Shown here one piece after another: positions 54,490 through 64,000 of a stretch of 64,000 nucleotides of DNA. Positions within the stretch are counted from its first letter, which is position 1. Each line of letters starts with the position of its first letter. Made by a program: the position numbers and the translations under genes. Source of the stretch: Armatimonadota bacterium (GTDB lineage: Bacteria; Armatimonadota; UBA5829; DTJY01); assembly GCA_017993055.1 (NCBI GenBank), contig JAGONM010000001.1:124001-188000 (forward strand), given 5' to 3'. Under the pieces are notes generated by a model. It did not search any database. It saw only the letters and a list, made by a program, of their open reading frames with translations, and was not told the DNA's origin.

Positions 54490-55890
54490 CTAGTCAGACC
54501 GACCGGACTCCTCGAGCACTTTGTTGATCTTCGCATCCGCTTCCTTGAAGGCAGATTCGACGGAGGCCTTGCCGAGGAACGACTTCTCGAAGGCCTGGTT
54601 CACCGCGTCCTGGACCTCGGGGCGGGTGAGGATGAGGAAGTCGTCCCAGCCCATGCCGATCTCGACAGAGTTGATGAACGCGTCGTAGTTCTTCGGATGC
54701 CCCGGCTTGCGCCAGACGGGGTCTTTCGCCATTGATTTCAGGCACGGGATGCCGCTGCCGGACTTCGCGAGGATCGTCTGGCCCTCGCGGCTGACGATGT
54801 ACTTCAGGAACTCCCAGGCCTCCTTCGGGTGTTTCGTGTTCGTGGACATGCCGTATCCAGCCGCGCCCATGTTCGTGACGTGCTTCACCGATCCCCTGGG
54901 CATCACCTGGACGTCCCAATCGAAGGCCTTCATCGTCGCGCGGTAAAGCGGCACCTGCGGGAAGACCTGCGGCTGCATGGCGATCTTCCCGGCCGCGAAG
55001 GGGTCTACCCCGGGGATCGTGATGCTTCGGTTCGGCGGGAGCGCGACCCTCTCCACGGTGACCAGTTCGATGAGGTTCTTCAACCCCTTGAGCGATTCCG
55101 GCGAGCTGAACGCGGCCCACTTCCCGTCCTTGGTCACCACCCGACCGCCCTCCGACGCGACCCACGGCGCGTAGACCCCGCACCACGTATAGCTCGCGGT
55201 GAATCCGTATTGGATGATGCGGCCCTGATCGTCGCGGAGGGTGAGCTTCTTCGCCATGCGGAGGAAGTCCTCGTGCGTCCAGTCCGGCGGCGGGTCGGGG
55301 AGCCCGGCCTTGCGGAAGAGCGTGCGGTTGTAGAACATCACGACGACGCCAAGCTCGCGGGGGAGCTGGAAGATCCGCCCCTGCTTGTCCATCCCGGTGG
55401 CGAGCATCTGGGGATAGATGTCGCCGATCGGGAACTCGGGGTCCTTCTTGATGAACTCGTTCAAGTCGCGGACGACGTTGTACTTGGTGAAAGTCGGGAC
55501 GAGCGAATCGGCGAGGAAGAGCACGTCGGGAACGGTCCCGGACGCGGACTGCATGATGAGCTTGATGTCGTAGCCCATCCCGGCGACCGGCTCGACATCT
55601 ATCTCGATGTCCGGGTGCTCGGCCTCGAAGCCCCTCGCCAGGGCGTTGGCGAGGTCGGCCTCCTGCTTCGCGCCGAGGATGCTGAACCGGAGGTGCACTG
55701 CGGTGTCCGTGGTCCTGGTGGAGCAACCGGAGAGCGAGAGAGTGAGCAAGACCAGCCAGATTGCCAGGCAGTTGAAACCGCGGCAACAAGGGCACGAATT
55801 CGACCTGCGTCGACCGGGGTCTCCAGTGTCCGCAGGGACACTTCGTGCAGTCGTTGCCATGACTTCAGTCGCCCGGACATCGGAGGCCAT
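54490..55890 (-). CDS. Extracellular solute-binding lipoprotein of a sugar ABC transporter (family 1)
   Basis: 466 residues from ATG at 55890, overlapping the glycosidase stop by one base (TGATG). After a polar N-terminus there is a lipoprotein signal (LAIWLVLLTLSLSGCS), then the family 1 fold (VHLRFSILGAKQEADLANAL, DVLFLADSLVPTF, YGFTASYTWCGVYAPWVASE). Captures sugar outside the inner membrane for the permeases at 48494 and 49383, from which it is separated by the plus-strand block. It may bind the product of the co-encoded glycosidase. C-terminus DAKINKVLEESG is normal. Confidence 0.92.
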   Translation of the reverse strand: MASDVRATEVMATTARSVPADTGDPGRRRSNSCPCCRGFNCLAIWLVLLTLSLSGCSTRTTDTAVHLRFSILGAKQEADLANALARGFEAEHPDIEIDVEPVAGMGYDIKLIMQSASGTVPDVLFLADSLVPTFTKYNVVRDLNEFIKKDPEFPIGDIYPQMLATGMDKQGRIFQLPRELGVVVMFYNRTLFRKAGLPDPPPDWTHEDFLRMAKKLTLRDDQGRIIQYGFTASYTWCGVYAPWVASEGGRVVTKDGKWAAFSSPESLKGLKNLIELVTVERVALPPNRSITIPGVDPFAAGKIAMQPQVFPQVPLYRATMKAFDWDVQVMPRGSVKHVTNMGAAGYGMSTNTKHPKEAWEFLKYIVSREGQTILAKSGSGIPCLKSMAKDPVWRKPGHPKNYDAFINSVEIGMGWDDFLILTRPEVQDAVNQAFEKSFLGKASVESAFKEADAKINKVLEESGRSD

Positions 55891-58424
55891 CACTTCCTCA
55901 CCGTCGCCGGAGTCAGCACGAACGTCTCGCCGGGCTTGAGCTCTCGTTTGATGGTGGTCGGGTTCAGGATGTTGAGCGGCGTGATCTCGACCGAGTCCCT
56001 GGTAACCTTGATATCGTACCGCGTGCCGGCGTAGGAGAGGTTTCGGACGCCGGCGTACTTCACAGTCGACGGGAGGTTCGGCTTGATCCTCATCCCGGTG
56101 ATGTCCGCATCTACGCCGAGGAACGCGTACAGGTACGATGCCGGCGCGAGGCCGCTCTCAGGGAACTCCCCCTCGACCCCGACCGAGCCCGCGCCGTTTC
56201 CCCCACCCTGCGAGTTCTCGCCGGTGTAGAGCGGGTTGCCGCCCATCAGTCGGTCGGGCATGTCGTAGCGGCCGAGCATCTCGGTCATGCGCTTGTATGC
56301 GTTGTCCGCGCCGAGATACTTTGCGCGGGCGATGATATCGTAGCCGGAGGTGTAGAGGATCGCGCCTCCGTCCTGGCACTGCTCGCCGTAGGGAGTGCCC
56401 ATCCAGCCGAAGTGCCACCAACTCGGCTTCGGATGCTGAGGCTCGTCACGCGGCGGGTTGTGAATCGTGTTGGCACGGGGGGCGAAGACCCAGGCGGAGT
56501 AGGTGTCCGCCTTGCCGGTGGAGGTCGGCTGGGCCTCCATCCACCTGTAGACGCGCTCGACCTGCGGCTTGTCGGCCAGATCGTAGGCCATCGCCTCGAC
56601 GTTCACGAAGGTGAAGCCGTAGTCGTGCTTCACGCCGTCGGTGTCCACGCAGCCGACGTAGCGCCCCTTGGCGTCATCCCAGAACGTGCGGTTGTACCCG
56701 AGACGGACGCGGTCGCGGAGCCTGGCGTAGAACTCGGGGGTCCGTTTATCGCCGGGGAGATCGAGGCCCTGGTCGGTGCAGAACTGCTCAAGTTCGCCCA
56801 TCGCCTTGAGCGACGCGTAGTAGTAGGAGTTGCAGAAGGCATCCTTGTACCCGAACGGCAGGATGTCCCAGTAGTTGCTTCCGATGCCGTCGTGACGTCC
56901 CTCGTGGCCCACGGCGTCTATCACGATGATGCCGTCCGTGCCATGGAGGTCGTTGAGCTGGAACTCCATCATGGATCGGAGCTTCGGCATCATCTCCTTG
57001 AGGAAGTCCGTGTCGCGCTTCCAGACGAAGTAGCGGTAGGCGCCGAGGATAATGCACGAGTTGGTGGTGAAGTGGCGGGTGTCGTAGTCGTTCCTGCCGT
57101 CCTTGTCCTCGTCTTTGTACGGGAACGGCCAGCCGTCGTCCGCGCCCCAGGTGCGGACGTATCCGTCGTCCCTGAGCTGGACACCGGTGAAGTGGCCGCG
57201 CTGTTCGAAGGTCTGCGGGCTGTCGGTCCAGTCGAGGATGAGCGCCTGCCACTCCTTCCAGTCGGGCGGAGTGCCGACCCCGAAGTTGAGTCCGTGGCTG
57301 TAGTAGAACTGGTTCACGAGGTTGGTGGTCTTCTTGTCGGAGGAGTAGAAGACCGGATAGTAGTCGGGAAGCGCATCGGAATGCGGCAGGAGGTCGAGAT
57401 CGAGCGCCGGGCCGCTCAGCTTCCACAAGGCTTCGTCGTCGGTGAACTCCCACTTGAGGCTCTGCCCGTTGAGGTTGAAGCGGAGGTCGTAGTTCCTCTT
57501 CCCCATCGCATAGACCCAGTTGCCGTGTTGGATATGACCGGCGGGCCGTCGCTTCCACTGCTGCGGGAGGACGTGCCTGCCGGTGTCCGAGTAGAAGCGG
57601 CTGAACGGGAACTTCCTGAGGTCGTAGCCGGCCTTCTCCCACGGGGTCACGAACGTGAGCGGCAGATTCCCGCCGGTGAACGCGCTCTGCAGCTTCGATC
57701 CGTCCAGCGTGATGCTCCAGTCGCCGACCACCTCGTTGAAACCGGAGTAGATCAGCGTGAGATCCTTTTCGGGCTCCTCGCTGCCGTCAATGACGGCGGC
57801 CGCATCGGGAGCGGCGCCTCTGTGCGAGCCCCACCATCCCATCGTCTTGCCGGTGTGCCCGGACATCTCGAGATAGAAGACGCCGGCGGGCTGCGGATCG
57901 AAGTCAATCGTCTGCACGCTGTTATCCGCGATGCCCGTAAGCTCGCGCGAGACGATCAGTTCCTTCCTCGCCAGGTCGCCATCGGGCAGGCGATAGATCG
58001 AGAGCGTGCAGGCGGAGTCGGGCTCGCCCCAGGTCGGGAACTTGCCGCCCGCGCGGGTGAGCATCCCCGACTTGATGGCAAACTTCACGCCGAGCGTCTT
58101 CCCGGGAGCGAGTTGGAACGGATCCGAGCCGTCCTTTTGCTCGACCGTGAACGGACTGCGGGCGATGAGTTCGTGGAATGTGAGACCGTTCGCCTCGACT
58201 GTAGGAGGCATTTGCAGACGGCGATCCTGGTCGGGCCGCTCGCCGATGTAGAGCGCCTTGATCAGGTTGTCGCCGTACTTGCCCTTTCCGGACGGGTCGA
58301 ACCGCATCGAATCGAAACAGCCGTTCCTCGCGTGGAGGGAGAAGTACCCGTTCGACAACTCCTGGGCGGATACCGCGCCGATGACGGATACTCCTAGTGC
58401 AAGGATCGCAGGGAAGAGCCTCAT
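55890..58424 (-). CDS. Exported six-hairpin glycosidase-like protein
   Basis: 844 residues from ATG at 58424, with GGAG about 10 bases upstream and a signal peptide (LFPAILALGVSVIGAVSAQ). The N-terminal half is beta-rich. The C-terminal 470 residues are an alpha/alpha barrel with Trp/Tyr/Asp-rich blocks (RTWGADDGWPFPYKDEDKDG, HFTTNSCIILGAYRYFVWKR, DAVGHEGRHDGIGSNYWDIL, GYKDAFCNSYYYASLKAMGE). Such folds occur in GH63, GH78 and related clans; I cannot name the family with confidence. Cluster with a sugar importer suggests it trims an oligosaccharide before uptake. The D/E residues in GHEGRHDGIGSNYWD are candidate catalytic sites. Confidence 0.8.
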   Translation of the reverse strand: MRLFPAILALGVSVIGAVSAQELSNGYFSLHARNGCFDSMRFDPSGKGKYGDNLIKALYIGERPDQDRRLQMPPTVEANGLTFHELIARSPFTVEQKDGSDPFQLAPGKTLGVKFAIKSGMLTRAGGKFPTWGEPDSACTLSIYRLPDGDLARKELIVSRELTGIADNSVQTIDFDPQPAGVFYLEMSGHTGKTMGWWGSHRGAAPDAAAVIDGSEEPEKDLTLIYSGFNEVVGDWSITLDGSKLQSAFTGGNLPLTFVTPWEKAGYDLRKFPFSRFYSDTGRHVLPQQWKRRPAGHIQHGNWVYAMGKRNYDLRFNLNGQSLKWEFTDDEALWKLSGPALDLDLLPHSDALPDYYPVFYSSDKKTTNLVNQFYYSHGLNFGVGTPPDWKEWQALILDWTDSPQTFEQRGHFTGVQLRDDGYVRTWGADDGWPFPYKDEDKDGRNDYDTRHFTTNSCIILGAYRYFVWKRDTDFLKEMMPKLRSMMEFQLNDLHGTDGIIVIDAVGHEGRHDGIGSNYWDILPFGYKDAFCNSYYYASLKAMGELEQFCTDQGLDLPGDKRTPEFYARLRDRVRLGYNRTFWDDAKGRYVGCVDTDGVKHDYGFTFVNVEAMAYDLADKPQVERVYRWMEAQPTSTGKADTYSAWVFAPRANTIHNPPRDEPQHPKPSWWHFGWMGTPYGEQCQDGGAILYTSGYDIIARAKYLGADNAYKRMTEMLGRYDMPDRLMGGNPLYTGENSQGGGNGAGSVGVEGEFPESGLAPASYLYAFLGVDADITGMRIKPNLPSTVKYAGVRNLSYAGTRYDIKVTRDSVEITPLNILNPTTIKRELKPGETFVLTPATVRK

Positions 58425-58528
58425 GGCGATTACACTCCGGGAATGTCGTGGTGTTGCTACAGTTCCCGTCCGAAAGAGAGGATTCCTTCGGGTGAGGCTC
58501 GGCAACTCAATCTGCGGCACAAATAGAA

Positions 58529-58555
58529 GCGGGACGGAGGTGAACTCCGTCCCGC
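58529..58555 (-). terminator. Hairpin terminator after the sigma-GGDEF gene
   Basis: GCGGGACGGAG (58529-58539) pairs perfectly with CTCCGTCCCGC (58545-58555), an 11-bp stem with a 5-base loop, followed on the minus strand by TTCTATTTG. It lies just after the sigma gene's stop and before the glycosidase gene. Confidence 0.68.
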
Positions 58556-58585: not shown

Positions 58586-59902
58586 CTATGCAGCCTTCGG
58601 CAGTTCGCGCGGCGCAGACTTCTCCAGGTTGGTCCGGGCGGCGGACAGGAGCTTGCGCGCAGACCGGCACTGGTGCGGATAGACCGAGCACCCGAACCGC
58701 AGTCCGAAATGGGCCGGCGGTCCGTTCCGGGGCGTCTCGAAACCGGTATTCATCACGACCTTGCAGACTCTCGCGCCGACCCTGACGGCTTGAGCGCCGG
58801 TGTAAGGCATTATCAGCGCAAACTCAGAGTCACCGGCTCTGCCGACGACATCGCATCGGCGAACACAATCCCTCACGGCAAGCCCGATCCTGTAGAACAC
58901 ATCCTCGCCGCGCATCACTCCGAACTGCTTCCTGAACTCCTCGAGACCGTCTACCGCCACGATACCGTATGCAAGCTCCGAGCCGGACCGAAGCGCGCGG
59001 CTGACCTCCTCGTCGAGCCGAGCCTCGATGTACTCAGCCGAGTACAGCCCGGTGACGCTGTCCACGACGGCGGGCTGCAGATCGTCGGCATCCCTTCCGG
59101 GCCTGCGGGTGGCCAGTTGAAGCTGGACCTGCGCCTCCTTAACCTCCTCGGTCGTAAGGATGCGGCGGAGCTTCCTCGTACCGTTGCGGAGGATGTGGGA
59201 CACGTAGTTGCAGGATATGCCGAGCGTCTTCGCGATCTCGGTCTGGCTGAGTCCCGTGTAGTAGAACTCCTGGATGACCTTCTGCTCGATGGTCTTCAGC
59301 TTGTGCATGCAGGTTTCGAGGACGATCTTGTCTTCAACCGGCAGCTGGAAGGTGACGCAACTGTCATCCTGCACCTTGTCGAGGTCAACGCCGTTCGACG
59401 GTCCGTCATCCTGGTCTATGTCCAGCGACGCGACCTTGAACACCTCTCGCGTAGTCAGCAGGTCGGCGACCTGCTCCTCCGGAAGGTGCATGACTCGGCC
59501 GATCTCGCTCTCGGTCGGCTGGCGGCCGAGTTCCTGGCAGAGCGCGCTTACGACGCGATCCATCTTGTAGTTCAGCTCCTGCAGCCAGGCCGGCTCCTTG
59601 ATGATCTTGCCGCGATCCCGGAGGGCGTGCTTGATCGTGCCGACGATGAAGTGCGTGGCATAGGTAGAGAACTTGACGCCCTTGTCGGCATTGTAGAGAT
59701 CGGCGGCCGTAATCAGGCCGATATAGCCTTCCTGAACAAGGTCTTCCACGGGCTCGGCCGACCCCACGAACCGGCGGGCGATACCTTCCACGAGGTTTCG
59801 ATACTGGCTGATAACCTGATCGCGGAGCAACTTGTCCCCGCTTTTAGCGTACAGGGCCAGTAGCGCCTGGACTTCGGCTTCCGAGAGCTTGCTCTTTGCC
59901 AC
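58586..59902 (-). CDS. Sigma-70 family factor fused to a degenerate GGDEF domain
   Basis: 438 residues. Residues 1-250 form a group 3-like sigma factor: region 2 with VEDLVQEGYIGLITAADLYN and KFSTYATHFIVGTIKHALR, region 3 with LGRQPTESEIGRVMHL, and region 4 with GLSQTEIAKTLGISCNYVSH. A short linker leads to residues 282-430, a GGDEF-type fold (DSVTGLYSAEY, ..., RAGDSEFALIMP, VGRAG). The signature is RAGDSEF where active enzymes have R-x-GG[DE]EF, so it probably does not make c-di-GMP and may bind a ligand or partner instead. ATG start; 11-bp terminator follows. It precedes the glycosidase and follows pilC. Confidence 0.85.
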   Translation of the reverse strand: MAKSKLSEAEVQALLALYAKSGDKLLRDQVISQYRNLVEGIARRFVGSAEPVEDLVQEGYIGLITAADLYNADKGVKFSTYATHFIVGTIKHALRDRGKIIKEPAWLQELNYKMDRVVSALCQELGRQPTESEIGRVMHLPEEQVADLLTTREVFKVASLDIDQDDGPSNGVDLDKVQDDSCVTFQLPVEDKIVLETCMHKLKTIEQKVIQEFYYTGLSQTEIAKTLGISCNYVSHILRNGTRKLRRILTTEEVKEAQVQLQLATRRPGRDADDLQPAVVDSVTGLYSAEYIEARLDEEVSRALRSGSELAYGIVAVDGLEEFRKQFGVMRGEDVFYRIGLAVRDCVRRCDVVGRAGDSEFALIMPYTGAQAVRVGARVCKVVMNTGFETPRNGPPAHFGLRFGCSVYPHQCRSARKLLSAARTNLEKSAPRELPKAA

Positions 59903-59964: not shown

Positions 59965-60000
59965 CCCGATACCGGGCGATGGGGATCGCCCGGTATCGGG
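59965..60000 (-). terminator. 15-bp perfect hairpin after pilC
   Basis: CCCGATACCGGGCGA (59965-59979) pairs with TCGCCCGGTATCGGG (59986-60000), 6-base loop. No T-run. Placed 10 bases after the pilC stop, between it and the sigma-GGDEF start; it may end the pil transcript or be an operator for the sigma gene. Confidence 0.6.
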
Positions 60001-60009
60001 AGTTGAATG

Positions 60010-61218
60010 CTATCCTATGCTGCTGACGAGCTTGAATATCGGGCCCATGACCGAGACGGCAATGAAACCGACCACAACGCCCATAAAGACGATGAGCAGA
60101 GGCTCGATCATCGAGGTCAGACCCTTGACGGCGGCATCCACCTCTCGGTCGTAAAAGTCCGAGACCTTGATCAACATCTCGCTGAGGCGGCCGGTCTCCT
60201 CGCCGACGTCAATCATGTGCGTGACCATCGTCGGGAACATCCCGCTGGACGCAAGGGGCGCGCTCACCTTCTGCCCTTCGCGAACGCTGTCCCGAGCGTT
60301 GTCCACCGCTTGCGCGAGGACGGTATTGCCGGCGGTCTCGCCGACGATCTCGAGAGCCCGCATCATCGGAACGCCGCTGCTCACCAGCGTGCCGAATGTT
60401 CGAGAGAACCGCGAGACGGCCATCTTGAGGACAATGTCGCCGACGAGCGGAGCCTTCAGCTTCAGCATGTCAATCTGGTATCGGCCGGCCTTGGTGCGCC
60501 CGTACGCGCGCACGAACAGCACGCCGCCTATGATAAGGCCGAGCGGGATATACCAGTAGGCCTTGAATAGCGCGCTGCCGTCGAAGAGCAGGCGCGTGGC
60601 CGGCGGCATCTCGACGTCCATGCTCACGAAGATCTCCTTGAACTTCGGCAGAACGAACATGAACAGCGCGCAGATCATCAGGACTGAGAAGACCAGGACG
60701 ATGATCGGGTACATCATGGCCGACTTGATCTTGGTGCGTATGTCCATCTCGGTCTCGAGGAAGCCGGCGAGCCTGTCGAGAACGGTATCGAGCACGCCGC
60801 CAAGTTCCGCCGCGCGAATCATGTTGACGTACAGCTTGGAGAAGACGTTCGGGTGCTTGGCGAAGGCATCCGTCAGGCTCATGCCGCTCTTGACGTCTCG
60901 CATAGACTGACTGATCACGGGCTTCAGCACATCGTCCTTCGTCTGGTTCTCCAGGATGTCGAGGCACTTGATGATACTGATGCCGGCGTCAATCATCGTA
61001 GCGAACTGGCGGCTGAACACGACGAGCGTGTTGAGCTTGAGCTTCTTGAACCTGTCGAAGCCGGTGAACCTGGCGCCCGTCCTGGCTTCGCGGATATCCA
61101 GCACGTGATACCGCTGGTCGTGAAGCTTGGAGAGGACCAACTGCTGGTTGTCGGCCTCTATCTTGCCCTTGACGGATCTCCCTGACTGGTCAACCGCCGT
61201 GTATGCAAATGTAGACAT
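60010..61218 (-). CDS. pilC: Type IV pilus assembly / type II secretion inner-membrane protein PilC (GspF family)
   Basis: 402 residues. Two T2SF repeats: the first has FSRQFATMIDAGISIIKCLD and the second has FSRTFGTLVSSGVPMMRALE, each with a following 'G..L..A......F' segment. Three membrane segments sit around residues 170-190, 220-240 and 375-400. N-terminal YTAVDQSGRSVKGKIEA is the usual cytoplasmic opening. It is the platform that couples the ATPases PilB and PilT to the pilus. Encoded with pilT and pilB upstream, so the set is for pili or pseudopili. Confidence 0.93.
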   Translation of the reverse strand: MSTFAYTAVDQSGRSVKGKIEADNQQLVLSKLHDQRYHVLDIREARTGARFTGFDRFKKLKLNTLVVFSRQFATMIDAGISIIKCLDILENQTKDDVLKPVISQSMRDVKSGMSLTDAFAKHPNVFSKLYVNMIRAAELGGVLDTVLDRLAGFLETEMDIRTKIKSAMMYPIIVLVFSVLMICALFMFVLPKFKEIFVSMDVEMPPATRLLFDGSALFKAYWYIPLGLIIGGVLFVRAYGRTKAGRYQIDMLKLKAPLVGDIVLKMAVSRFSRTFGTLVSSGVPMMRALEIVGETAGNTVLAQAVDNARDSVREGQKVSAPLASSGMFPTMVTHMIDVGEETGRLSEMLIKVSDFYDREVDAAVKGLTSMIEPLLIVFMGVVVGFIAVSVMGPIFKLVSSIG

Positions 61219-61299: not shown

Positions 61300-62559
61300 T
61301 CAACTGCCGTTAAGCAACCTGGTGAAGTTGTCTCTGTCTATGGCCCTGCTGACGGCCTCTTCGTAGCTGATCACGCCGTTCCTGTGAGCGTCGGCGAGCA
61401 CGCGATCCATCGCCTGCATGCCGGCTGCTCCTCCGGTCTCGATGGACGAGTATATCTGATAGGTCTTGCCTTCTCTGATTAGGTTCCTGATCGCCGGATT
61501 GGCCACCATGATCTCGATGGCCGCGTAGCGACCTCCGCCGACTCGCGGAATGAGCTGCTGGGCGACAACGGCTTCGATGGTGTTCGAGAGCTGTACCTTG
61601 ATCTGATCCTGCTGGTGCGCCGGGAAGACGTCCACCACCCTGTCAATGGTCTGCGGCGCGTTTCTCGTGTGCAAGGTGCCGAACACGAGGTGGCCGGTCT
61701 CAGCAAGGGTTATCGCGGCCGCGATCGTCTCCAGGTCGCGCATCTCGCCTACCAGTATGACATCCGGGTCCTCGCGCAGTATGGCGCGCAGGGCGTTCTC
61801 GAACGAGTCCGTGTCGGTGTTGAGTTCGCGCTGGTTAACCATGCACTTCCTGTGGTTGTGCAGATACTCGATCGGGTCTTCGATGGTCATTATGTGCCCG
61901 CTGCGCTCGCCGTTGATGTTGTCGATCATCGTCGCGATCGTCGTGGACTTTCCGCTTCCGGTCGGCCCGGTGACCAGGATCAACCCGCTGTGCTTGCGGG
62001 TCAGCTCGCGCAGGATCGGGGGAAGGCCGAGTTCCTCCATCGAGGGAATCTTCGTGGGAATCGCGCGCATTGCGACGCCGATGGAGCCGCGCTGCTTGTA
62101 GACGTTGACCCTGAATCGCCCGGCGTTCTTGACCCCGTAGGAGAAGTCGAGTTCGCGCGTCTTCTCGAACCACTGGATCTGATCGTTGCTCAGAATGTCG
62201 TAGATGAGCCGCTGGGTATCGCGCTGGCCGAGTTCGGCGTAAGGAGTGGCGACGAGATGTCCGTCGCAGCGCACCATCGGCGGCCTGCCGACGGTCAGGT
62301 GGATATCCGAGCTTCCCATCTCGCACCCGAGGCGAAGCAGATCGTCAATGTGCACGTCGGAGACCGGCTTGCCCTTCTGATCCGAAGACTGAGGCTCTTC
62401 GTCAAGCTTGTGCAGAAGGTCAATCTCCCGCATGTTCGGCTCCAGGCGATCGCCTTCGTCGAGCGCGACCGGTCGGCCCAGAAGGTCCGTCTCTTCGGTT
62501 TGCCGCCGGCTCAGGTCGTCCGGGCTTCCGGGCTGGTTCAAGAGGTCAATGTCCTGCAT
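61300..62559 (-). CDS. pilT: Twitching-motility retraction ATPase PilT with extended N-terminus
   Basis: 419 residues against the usual 345. Residues from about 75 are a normal PilT: GSSDIHLTVGRPPMVR, Walker A GPTGSGKSTTIATM, Asp box DPIEYLHNHRK, Walker B LVGEMRDLETI, and the C-terminal AIRNLIREGKTYQI retraction motif. The extra 70 N-terminal residues contain three copies of a short DLL-P motif (IDLLNQPGSPDDL, TDLLGRPVALDEG, IDLLHKLDEEP), maybe protein-binding. The stop lies 81 bases before the pilC start. Cytoplasmic hexamer removing pilin from the fibre. Confidence 0.93.
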   Translation of the reverse strand: MQDIDLLNQPGSPDDLSRRQTEETDLLGRPVALDEGDRLEPNMREIDLLHKLDEEPQSSDQKGKPVSDVHIDDLLRLGCEMGSSDIHLTVGRPPMVRCDGHLVATPYAELGQRDTQRLIYDILSNDQIQWFEKTRELDFSYGVKNAGRFRVNVYKQRGSIGVAMRAIPTKIPSMEELGLPPILRELTRKHSGLILVTGPTGSGKSTTIATMIDNINGERSGHIMTIEDPIEYLHNHRKCMVNQRELNTDTDSFENALRAILREDPDVILVGEMRDLETIAAAITLAETGHLVFGTLHTRNAPQTIDRVVDVFPAHQQDQIKVQLSNTIEAVVAQQLIPRVGGGRYAAIEIMVANPAIRNLIREGKTYQIYSSIETGGAAGMQAMDRVLADAHRNGVISYEEAVSRAIDRDNFTRLLNGS

Positions 62560-62591: not shown

Positions 62592-64000
62592 CTAGCCGGA
62601 ATAGATCACCCTCAGCGACTCCTCGAGGGTCGTCATGCCGAGAAGAATCTTCTCCATGGCATCATCTCTGAGCGTCTTCATCCCGGCCTCCACCGCGGCT
62701 TCCTTGAGCGCATACGATGAGGACCTGGCCAGGACTAGATCGCGAATCTTGTCCGTTATGGGCATCAGCTCGTATATGCCGATCCTGCCCTTGTATCCCG
62801 TGCCCTTGCAGTGGTCGCATCCCTTGCCCCGCGAGAAGGTTACCTCGGAGTCCTCCTCGACGTTCATGCCGAGACGCCGGATGGCGTCGCGGGGCGGGGA
62901 ATACGTCTCCTTGCACTTCGGGCATATCATCCTGAGGAGTCTCTGGGCCAGCACTCCGATCACCGACGATGCGATCAGGAAGGATTCGACATCCATCTCC
63001 TGAAGCCTGGTGACCGCGCCGGGCGCGTCGTTCGTGTGCAACGTCGAGAGCACCAGGTGGCCGGTGAGGGCCGCCTCGATGGCGATCGTCGCGGTTTCCT
63101 TGTCGCGGATCTCGCCGACCATTATGATGTTCGGGTCCTGGCGCAGCATGGTCCGCAGGCCGCTCGCAAAGGTCATGCCCGCCCGGACGTTGACCTGCGT
63201 CTGGGTGATGCCCGCAAGCTCGTACTCGACCGGGTCTTCGATGGTAAGGATGTTCTTCTCGCCCGAGTTGAGCTTCGAGAGCACCGAGTACAGCGTGGTT
63301 GACTTGCCGCTGCCGGTGGGGCCGGTGACCAGTATTATCCCGTAGCTCCGGCTGATGATTGACTCGAACATGTCCTGGGTGTTGGGAAGCAGACCCAGCT
63401 TGTTCAGACCAATCATGATGGAGCTCTTGTCGAGGACCCTCAGTACGACTTTCTCTCCGTAGACCGACGGCAGAGTGGACACGCGGAAGTCGTACTGCTT
63501 GCCGTCAACCACCGCGCTGATGCGGCCGTCCTGCGGAGCGCGCTTCTCGGCGATGTCCATCTCGGACATGATCTTGATACGAGATATGAGCGACGCCTGA
63601 GCCTTCTTCGGAACCAGCAGGCCGTCGTGCAGTATGCCGTCTATGCGATAGCGCACCTTCAGCGACGTCTTCCCGGGCTCGAGGTGGATGTCGCTGCACT
63701 TGTCCTGTATCCCTCGGGTCAGTATGAGGTTGCACAGCCGTATGACCGGGGCTTCTTCGCTGAGCTCGCGAAGCTCCTCGATGCTGACCTCGTCCTCCTG
63801 GCTCTCGTCGTCGCCTTCGGTCAGGGCGATGTCGGCGGTCTCGATGTTGTCAATGAGTTCGTTGACGGCCTCTATTGACTGGCTGCCGCCGTAGAAGTGG
63901 CTGATCGCGCCGAGGATATCCTCTTCGGTAGCGATGACCGGCTCGACATCCAGTCCGGTGATAAGGCGGATCTCATCAATGGCGAAGATATCGAGCGGGT
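62592..64000 (-). CDS. pilB: Type IV pilus extension ATPase PilB (N-terminus beyond the window)
   Basis: C-terminal and central part of a GspE/PilB ATPase, continuing past the right edge. Visible are part of the N-terminal domain (VIRLCNLILTRGIQDKCSD), the ATP site GPTGSGKSTTLYSVL, Walker B region MVGEIRDKETATIAIEAALT, and the zinc-binding four-cysteine segment CPKCKETY ... CDHCKG of type II secretion/pilus ATPases. Its stop lies 32 bases before the pilT start. With PilT and PilC it drives pilus extension. The ending YSG and DDAMEKILLGMTTLEESLRV are typical. Confidence 0.93.
   Translation of the reverse strand, partial: PLDIFAIDEIRLITGLDVEPVIATEEDILGAISHFYGGSQSIEAVNELIDNIETADIALTEGDDESQEDEVSIEELRELSEEAPVIRLCNLILTRGIQDKCSDIHLEPGKTSLKVRYRIDGILHDGLLVPKKAQASLISRIKIMSEMDIAEKRAPQDGRISAVVDGKQYDFRVSTLPSVYGEKVVLRVLDKSSIMIGLNKLGLLPNTQDMFESIISRSYGIILVTGPTGSGKSTTLYSVLSKLNSGEKNILTIEDPVEYELAGITQTQVNVRAGMTFASGLRTMLRQDPNIIMVGEIRDKETATIAIEAALTGHLVLSTLHTNDAPGAVTRLQEMDVESFLIASSVIGVLAQRLLRMICPKCKETYSPPRDAIRRLGMNVEEDSEVTFSRGKGCDHCKGTGYKGRIGIYELMPITDKIRDLVLARSSSYALKEAAVEAGMKTLRDDAMEKILLGMTTLEESLRVIYSG

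Follow-up and report, generated by a model that had tools for sequence, protein, structure and literature searches.

A sigma factor fused to a degenerate GGDEF domain in the type IV pilus operon of Armatimonadota, a candidate c-di-GMP-gated sigma factor

The type IV pilus operon of the Armatimonadota genome analysed here ends with a gene for a sigma factor that continues, within a single polypeptide, into a degenerate GGDEF domain. We think it rather probable that the protein is a sigma factor for pilus genes that is gated by c-di-GMP within one polypeptide chain and is possibly cleared by ClpXP-type proteolysis. To the fuller account, in which c-di-GMP acts by binding directly to the sigma factor, an anti-sigma factor plays no part, and the protein steers type IV pilus transcription across the phylum and carries a built-in degron for its clearance, we would give somewhat less than an even chance. 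Ligand binding, the sign of its effect, the target promoters and proteolysis are what we infer.

The gene occupies positions 58586-59902 of the window (the whole 64,000-nucleotide stretch that was analysed) on the minus strand, as do all residues, pil genes and hairpins given below. It starts with GTG, stops with TAG and encodes 438 amino acids without an internal stop. As a member of the sigma70 family, the protein has regions 2 (residues 31-99, 59606-59812; PF04542, E 1.6e-19), 3 (residues 110-168, 59399-59575; PF04539, E 1e-8) and 4 (residues 198-246, 59165-59311; PF04545, E 1.6e-12) in that order, all above the Pfam cut-off. These are followed by a GGDEF match (residues 278-429, 58616-59071; PF00990, E 3.3e-21) that spans profile positions 1-154 of 161 and is thus a nearly complete domain. 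A preliminary description of this DNA had proposed a complete sigma factor fused to a GGDEF domain with the signature RAGDSEF, and the single open reading frame, the domain search and the translation agree with it on all of these points. A frameshift or assembly chimera was considered and ruled out, since the same single stop-free frame recurs across Armatimonadota, where it is full length in related genomes.

In an AlphaFold prediction the GGDEF part is compact (pLDDT ~95), and PleD, WspR and other cyclases resemble it with Z 20-23 over ~150 residues when solved GGDEF domains are compared by VIA-align; PleD solved with c-di-GMP matches the fold at Z ~22. The last helix of region 4 (residues 231-264) is predicted to run on into the linker (residues 247-273, 59084-59164), and this long helix and a short flexible stretch connect region 4 to the GGDEF domain. 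The linker between regions 3 and 4 (residues 157-188) and the C-terminal tail are loose in the model, and with a low pTM of 0.43 the prediction yields no interface between the two halves.

Profile scores place the fusion nearer to SigB/F/G than to FliA/WhiG. Against TIGR02980 (SigB/SigF/SigG) it scores 157.5 bits, below the curated cut-off of 234.35, and on its profile scores it is a relative of this subfamily that we do not call a member. The C5 paralogue of the window genome passes the same model with 284.9 bits. This SigB-type paralogue is a separate gene in the window genome, and its orthologue in G001, a genome without the fusion, follows an RsbW-like gene (loci L261:2901-3674 and L262:1275-2479).

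What could the GGDEF half do? It does not carry the GG(D/E)EF motif with a conserved catalytic Glu that marks an active diguanylate cyclase. The signature of the window protein is GDSEF (residues 357-361, 58820-58834), and among 52 fusion sequences from across the phylum it is scrambled, with even the loop length unequal and the catalytic Glu360 found in only four. Since the signature is degenerate phylum-wide, we conclude that the fusion is no cyclase, as the preliminary description had expected; residual cyclase activity was rejected on the same degenerate active site.

The residues of the inhibitory site have fared differently. The I-site of PleD is formed by R359, D362 and R390 together with R313 from the partner chain (PMC7288161, review). 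In the fusion, the RxxD motif R348-R-C-D351 (58850-58861) has both its Arg and its Asp in 52/52 orthologues; R302 (58997-58999) is likewise 52/52, and R378 (58769-58771) and R305 are each kept in 51 of the 52. From an alignment with WspR and our own PleD numbering, we take R348, D351, R378 and R302 to be the equivalents of PleD R359, D362, R390 and R313. In an alignment of 56 sequences, the only invariant positions after residue 272 are R295, E298, R302, R348 and D351. Retention of RxxD has a high baseline, because 60 of the 69 canonical GGDEF proteins of these genomes have it too. Change has been quicker in the GGDEF half than in the sigma half (window tip branch 1.01 vs 0.28), and the telling point, as read from the alignments, is that RxxD persists while the remainder of this fast-evolving domain changes. 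By sequence and prediction, the fusion has what is seen in PopA-like degenerate GGDEF receptors, namely the fold with a dead active site, and RxxD with a further conserved I-site Arg. The preliminary description had raised a c-di-GMP receptor role as a possibility; I-site invariance, the lost active site and co-presence with c-di-GMP enzymes suggest that this is the most likely role of the domain.

The co-presence is seen among genomes at least 90% complete, where 0/149 fusion genomes lack another GGDEF protein vs 15/56 non-fusion genomes, and the median number of GGDEF proteins is six with the fusion and one without it. Three genomes (G001, G013 and G021) are without the fusion and give no GGDEF match at all. 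The p-values of this co-occurrence overstate the evidence, because the genomes are related and the counts not independent; the pattern is nevertheless seen again in different families. Besides the fusion, the window genome encodes two GGDEF proteins, apparently with HD-GYP-type domains, and another with a CBS-like start (domains named by eye).

The fusion, which the preliminary description had proposed to look for in other genomes, is widespread in the phylum. Its profile is matched by 204 of 291 Armatimonadota genomes at E <= 1e-50, and about 193 of the 291 are counted as carriers at E <= 1e-60, our own cut-off, set to leave out sigma-only paralogues. The orthologues bear GTDB names such as Armatimonadota, Chthonomonadales and Fimbriimonadales. 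In a tree of GGDEF domains, those of 56 sampled fusions group together as a single clade apart from 40 canonical ones (support 100/99); the tree of the sigma part is too weak on the fusion branch (49/75) to strengthen this result. The single GGDEF clade fits one ancient fusion event that was followed by vertical inheritance. For the fusion outside Armatimonadota, one genome scan was run with two short sigma patterns and 80 matches retained, too narrow a basis for a statement on absence elsewhere; the lower-ranked of these 80 (L077-L100) cover the sigma part only, and in every case except L097 the protein stops shortly past it. Neither a sigma-GGDEF fusion nor such a set of features within a single chain was described in the open-access full texts that were searched, and we do not claim that the fusion is absent outside Armatimonadota.

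The fusion gene belongs to a type IV pilus operon, which in the window genome runs pilM-N-O-(214-aa protein)-Q-B-T-C and has the fusion gene as its last member. Its neighbours upstream are pilC (T2SSF; 60010-61218), a pilT-like ATPase gene (61300-62559) and pilB with an MshEN domain (62592-63998), which extends beyond the window end and encodes 574 aa in full. The fusion gene directly follows pilC at 28 of 56 loci, Fimbriimonadales included, and is divergent from pil genes at three more; several other loci are cut by contig ends, and in some Chthonomonadaceae the gene lies away from pil genes. In genus g28, a strong PilM match (E <= 2e-44) is found in 11/11 genomes with the fusion and in 0/9 without it. 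These nine have weak PilM matches only (E >= 1e-38), and five of them still have 4-10 GGDEF proteins.

A perfect 16-bp inverted repeat (59965-60000) lies between pilC and the fusion gene. It has no T-run and is therefore possibly an attenuator or an mRNA-stability hairpin, and a similar hairpin was not evident in most of the relatives looked at. A terminator-like hairpin with an 11-bp stem (58529-58555) follows the fusion gene. Farther downstream, window positions 54490-58520 encode a DUF608/GH116-like protein and an ABC solute-binding protein. The preliminary description had named both the pil genes and this glycosidase/ABC operon as plausible targets. Operon membership, co-occurrence and a shared conserved promoter support the former; the latter is separated from the fusion gene by the hairpin and, among the compared loci, the pair is shared only with the close relative L030 (G003), which makes the sugar operon an improbable target of the fusion sigma factor.

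The promoter in question is a site upstream of pilM that is common to 13 genomes and has, with few exceptions, the form CTNNWNNT-N12-RMCRATAAT (G000:C1:193812-193840, beyond the window; relatives L197-L210). The sigma28 consensus is TAAAGTTT-N11-GCCGATAA, and the pilM site is close to it. No flagellin was found in the window genome, and the promoter is therefore unlikely to serve flagella there. The sigma28-like site is tied to the fusion by position only, and another sigma factor could read it. Genome-wide, the site before pilM is the only one, or one of few, matching the pilM-type pattern in several genomes of the class; over the phylum the pattern is only modestly above its reversed control, and therefore no regulon could be drawn. 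A matrix derived from the pilM promoters scores 15.9 just before a GGDEF gene of the window genome (L162:632) and does not exceed 3.3 anywhere in the window. A pattern whose spacer exceeds that at pilM by one base has its sole zero-mismatch match at G000:C4:127090-127119 (L227, L263), adjoining a downstream gene with a weak STAS match.

The end of the protein may bear on its lifetime. The last two residues are Ala-Ala (437-438, 58589-58594), a candidate degron that follows an unconserved tail. Ala-Ala ends 49 of 56 fusions (48/55 closed orthologues and the window protein) and Val-Ala four more; about 13 of 525 other ORFs (about 2.5%) end in Ala-Ala. The tmRNA tags of these genomes also end in AA, mostly ALAA, the ssrA tag of the window genome being GTNSYALAA, so that these 49 fusions have an ssrA-like C terminus as in the tag of their hosts. 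Among canonical GGDEF proteins, Ala-Ala ends 43 of 69 (loci L162, L163, L168-L196, L267-L306) and 31 of the 39 that have a long stretch after the GGDEF domain. The idea that Ala-Ala is peculiar to the fusion was rejected on this control; because so many canonical GGDEF proteins have it, it is a trait of c-di-GMP proteins in the group. The shared tail is most likely a protease tag, and it is possible that it serves as a common proteolysis tag on the c-di-GMP network.

How might such a protein work? We propose a SigB/F/G-like sigma factor with a built-in putative c-di-GMP receptor, in which c-di-GMP, probably as a dimer, would be bound by RxxD and R378 in one chain and by R302 in its partner. 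Since R302 is invariant and its PleD counterpart reaches into the site of the partner, the ligand may cross-link two sigma molecules, by analogy with product-inhibited PleD and WspR. Cross-linking would alter how readily the sigma half reaches RNA polymerase. In the simplest case, bound c-di-GMP would keep the sigma factor inactive, a choice of sign that is a guess and hardly better than the toss of a coin. Once active, the sigma factor would direct transcription of pilus genes, among them probably the pilM-to-sigma operon through its sigma28-like promoter, and the C-terminal Ala-Ala would probably make the protein a substrate of a ClpXP-type protease, limiting its lifetime.

An alternative is that the degenerate GGDEF domain is a ligand-free docking or dimerisation module for a cyclase, a phosphodiesterase or an anti-sigma factor. 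Degenerate GGDEF domains can work through contact alone. The GGDEF domain of RmdB binds WhiG directly and displaces RsiG (PMC13232838). A contact surface, however, need not coincide with the c-di-GMP site, and it is the ligand-contacting R302, R348, D351 and R378 that are specifically conserved in a fast-evolving domain, which makes docking rather unlikely in our view. A different guanine nucleotide may instead be the ligand, (p)ppGpp or GTP for example, which would link transcription of the pilus genes to nutrient state; there are PleD structures that contain ppGpp or pppGpp in addition to c-di-GMP (9g85, 9g86). We regard this as very unlikely, given that c-di-GMP is the ligand for which the kept residues have been described, that the substrate site has degenerated and that presence of the fusion tracks c-di-GMP enzymes.

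It is also conceivable that c-di-GMP is the ligand and that control is exerted by regulated degradation, not by direct gating, with the GGDEF half sensing c-di-GMP and exposing or hiding the C-terminal protease tag. The ssrA-like end after an unconserved tail would suit this mechanism, and PopA, a degenerate GGDEF protein with an I-site, directs CtrA to ClpXP (PMC12564702). The same end is carried by many other c-di-GMP proteins, however, and we consider degradation in place of gating unlikely. There is a similarly small chance that the sigma factor serves genes unrelated to pili and is merely carried along in the pil operon. Its separation from pil genes in some Chthonomonadaceae and the promoter-like site before the gene with the weak STAS match speak for this, whereas operon linkage in distant classes and the joint loss with strong PilM inside one genus argue for a role in pilus expression.

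The usual control of sigma factors is by separate anti-sigma proteins. In Streptomyces, c-di-GMP governs a sigma factor through a separate protein in the RsiG-WhiG system (PMC13232838), which resembles the proposed control of the fusion in placing a sigma factor under c-di-GMP at the protein level; the pil operon promoter described here also has a sigma28/WhiG-like -10 element. WhiG, however, needs a separate anti-sigma factor that holds the c-di-GMP, whereas the receptor-like domain of the fusion is covalent and has the GGDEF fold. RmdB of Streptomyces venezuelae likewise brings a GGDEF domain together with a sigma factor, by a known contact, but it works in trans and is an active phosphodiesterase. 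Caulobacter PopA shares with the fusion a degenerate GGDEF domain with an intact I-site RxxD and a tie to ClpXP proteolysis of a transcription regulator, for which the fusion has its candidate degron. PopA is nevertheless a response-regulator-type adaptor that acts on CtrA in trans, and the fusion is a sigma factor that has both the domain and the candidate degron. SigB/RsbW partner switching belongs to the sigma subfamily nearest by profile (TIGR02980, with the fusion below its cut-off), but SigB is governed by a separate kinase anti-sigma factor, and a SigB-type paralogue is present as a gene apart in the window genome. Cyanobacterial SigF is a sigma factor of group 3 with control over pilus genes (pilA) (PMC7690835), a tie to pili that we propose for the fusion too; no GGDEF domain and no covalent link to c-di-GMP are described for SigF.

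If the protein acts as we propose, with sigma factor and second-messenger receptor in one molecule, the path that leads from c-di-GMP to a transcription programme would be unusually short. Such a sigma factor would also provide a first handle on when the little-studied Armatimonadota build pili.
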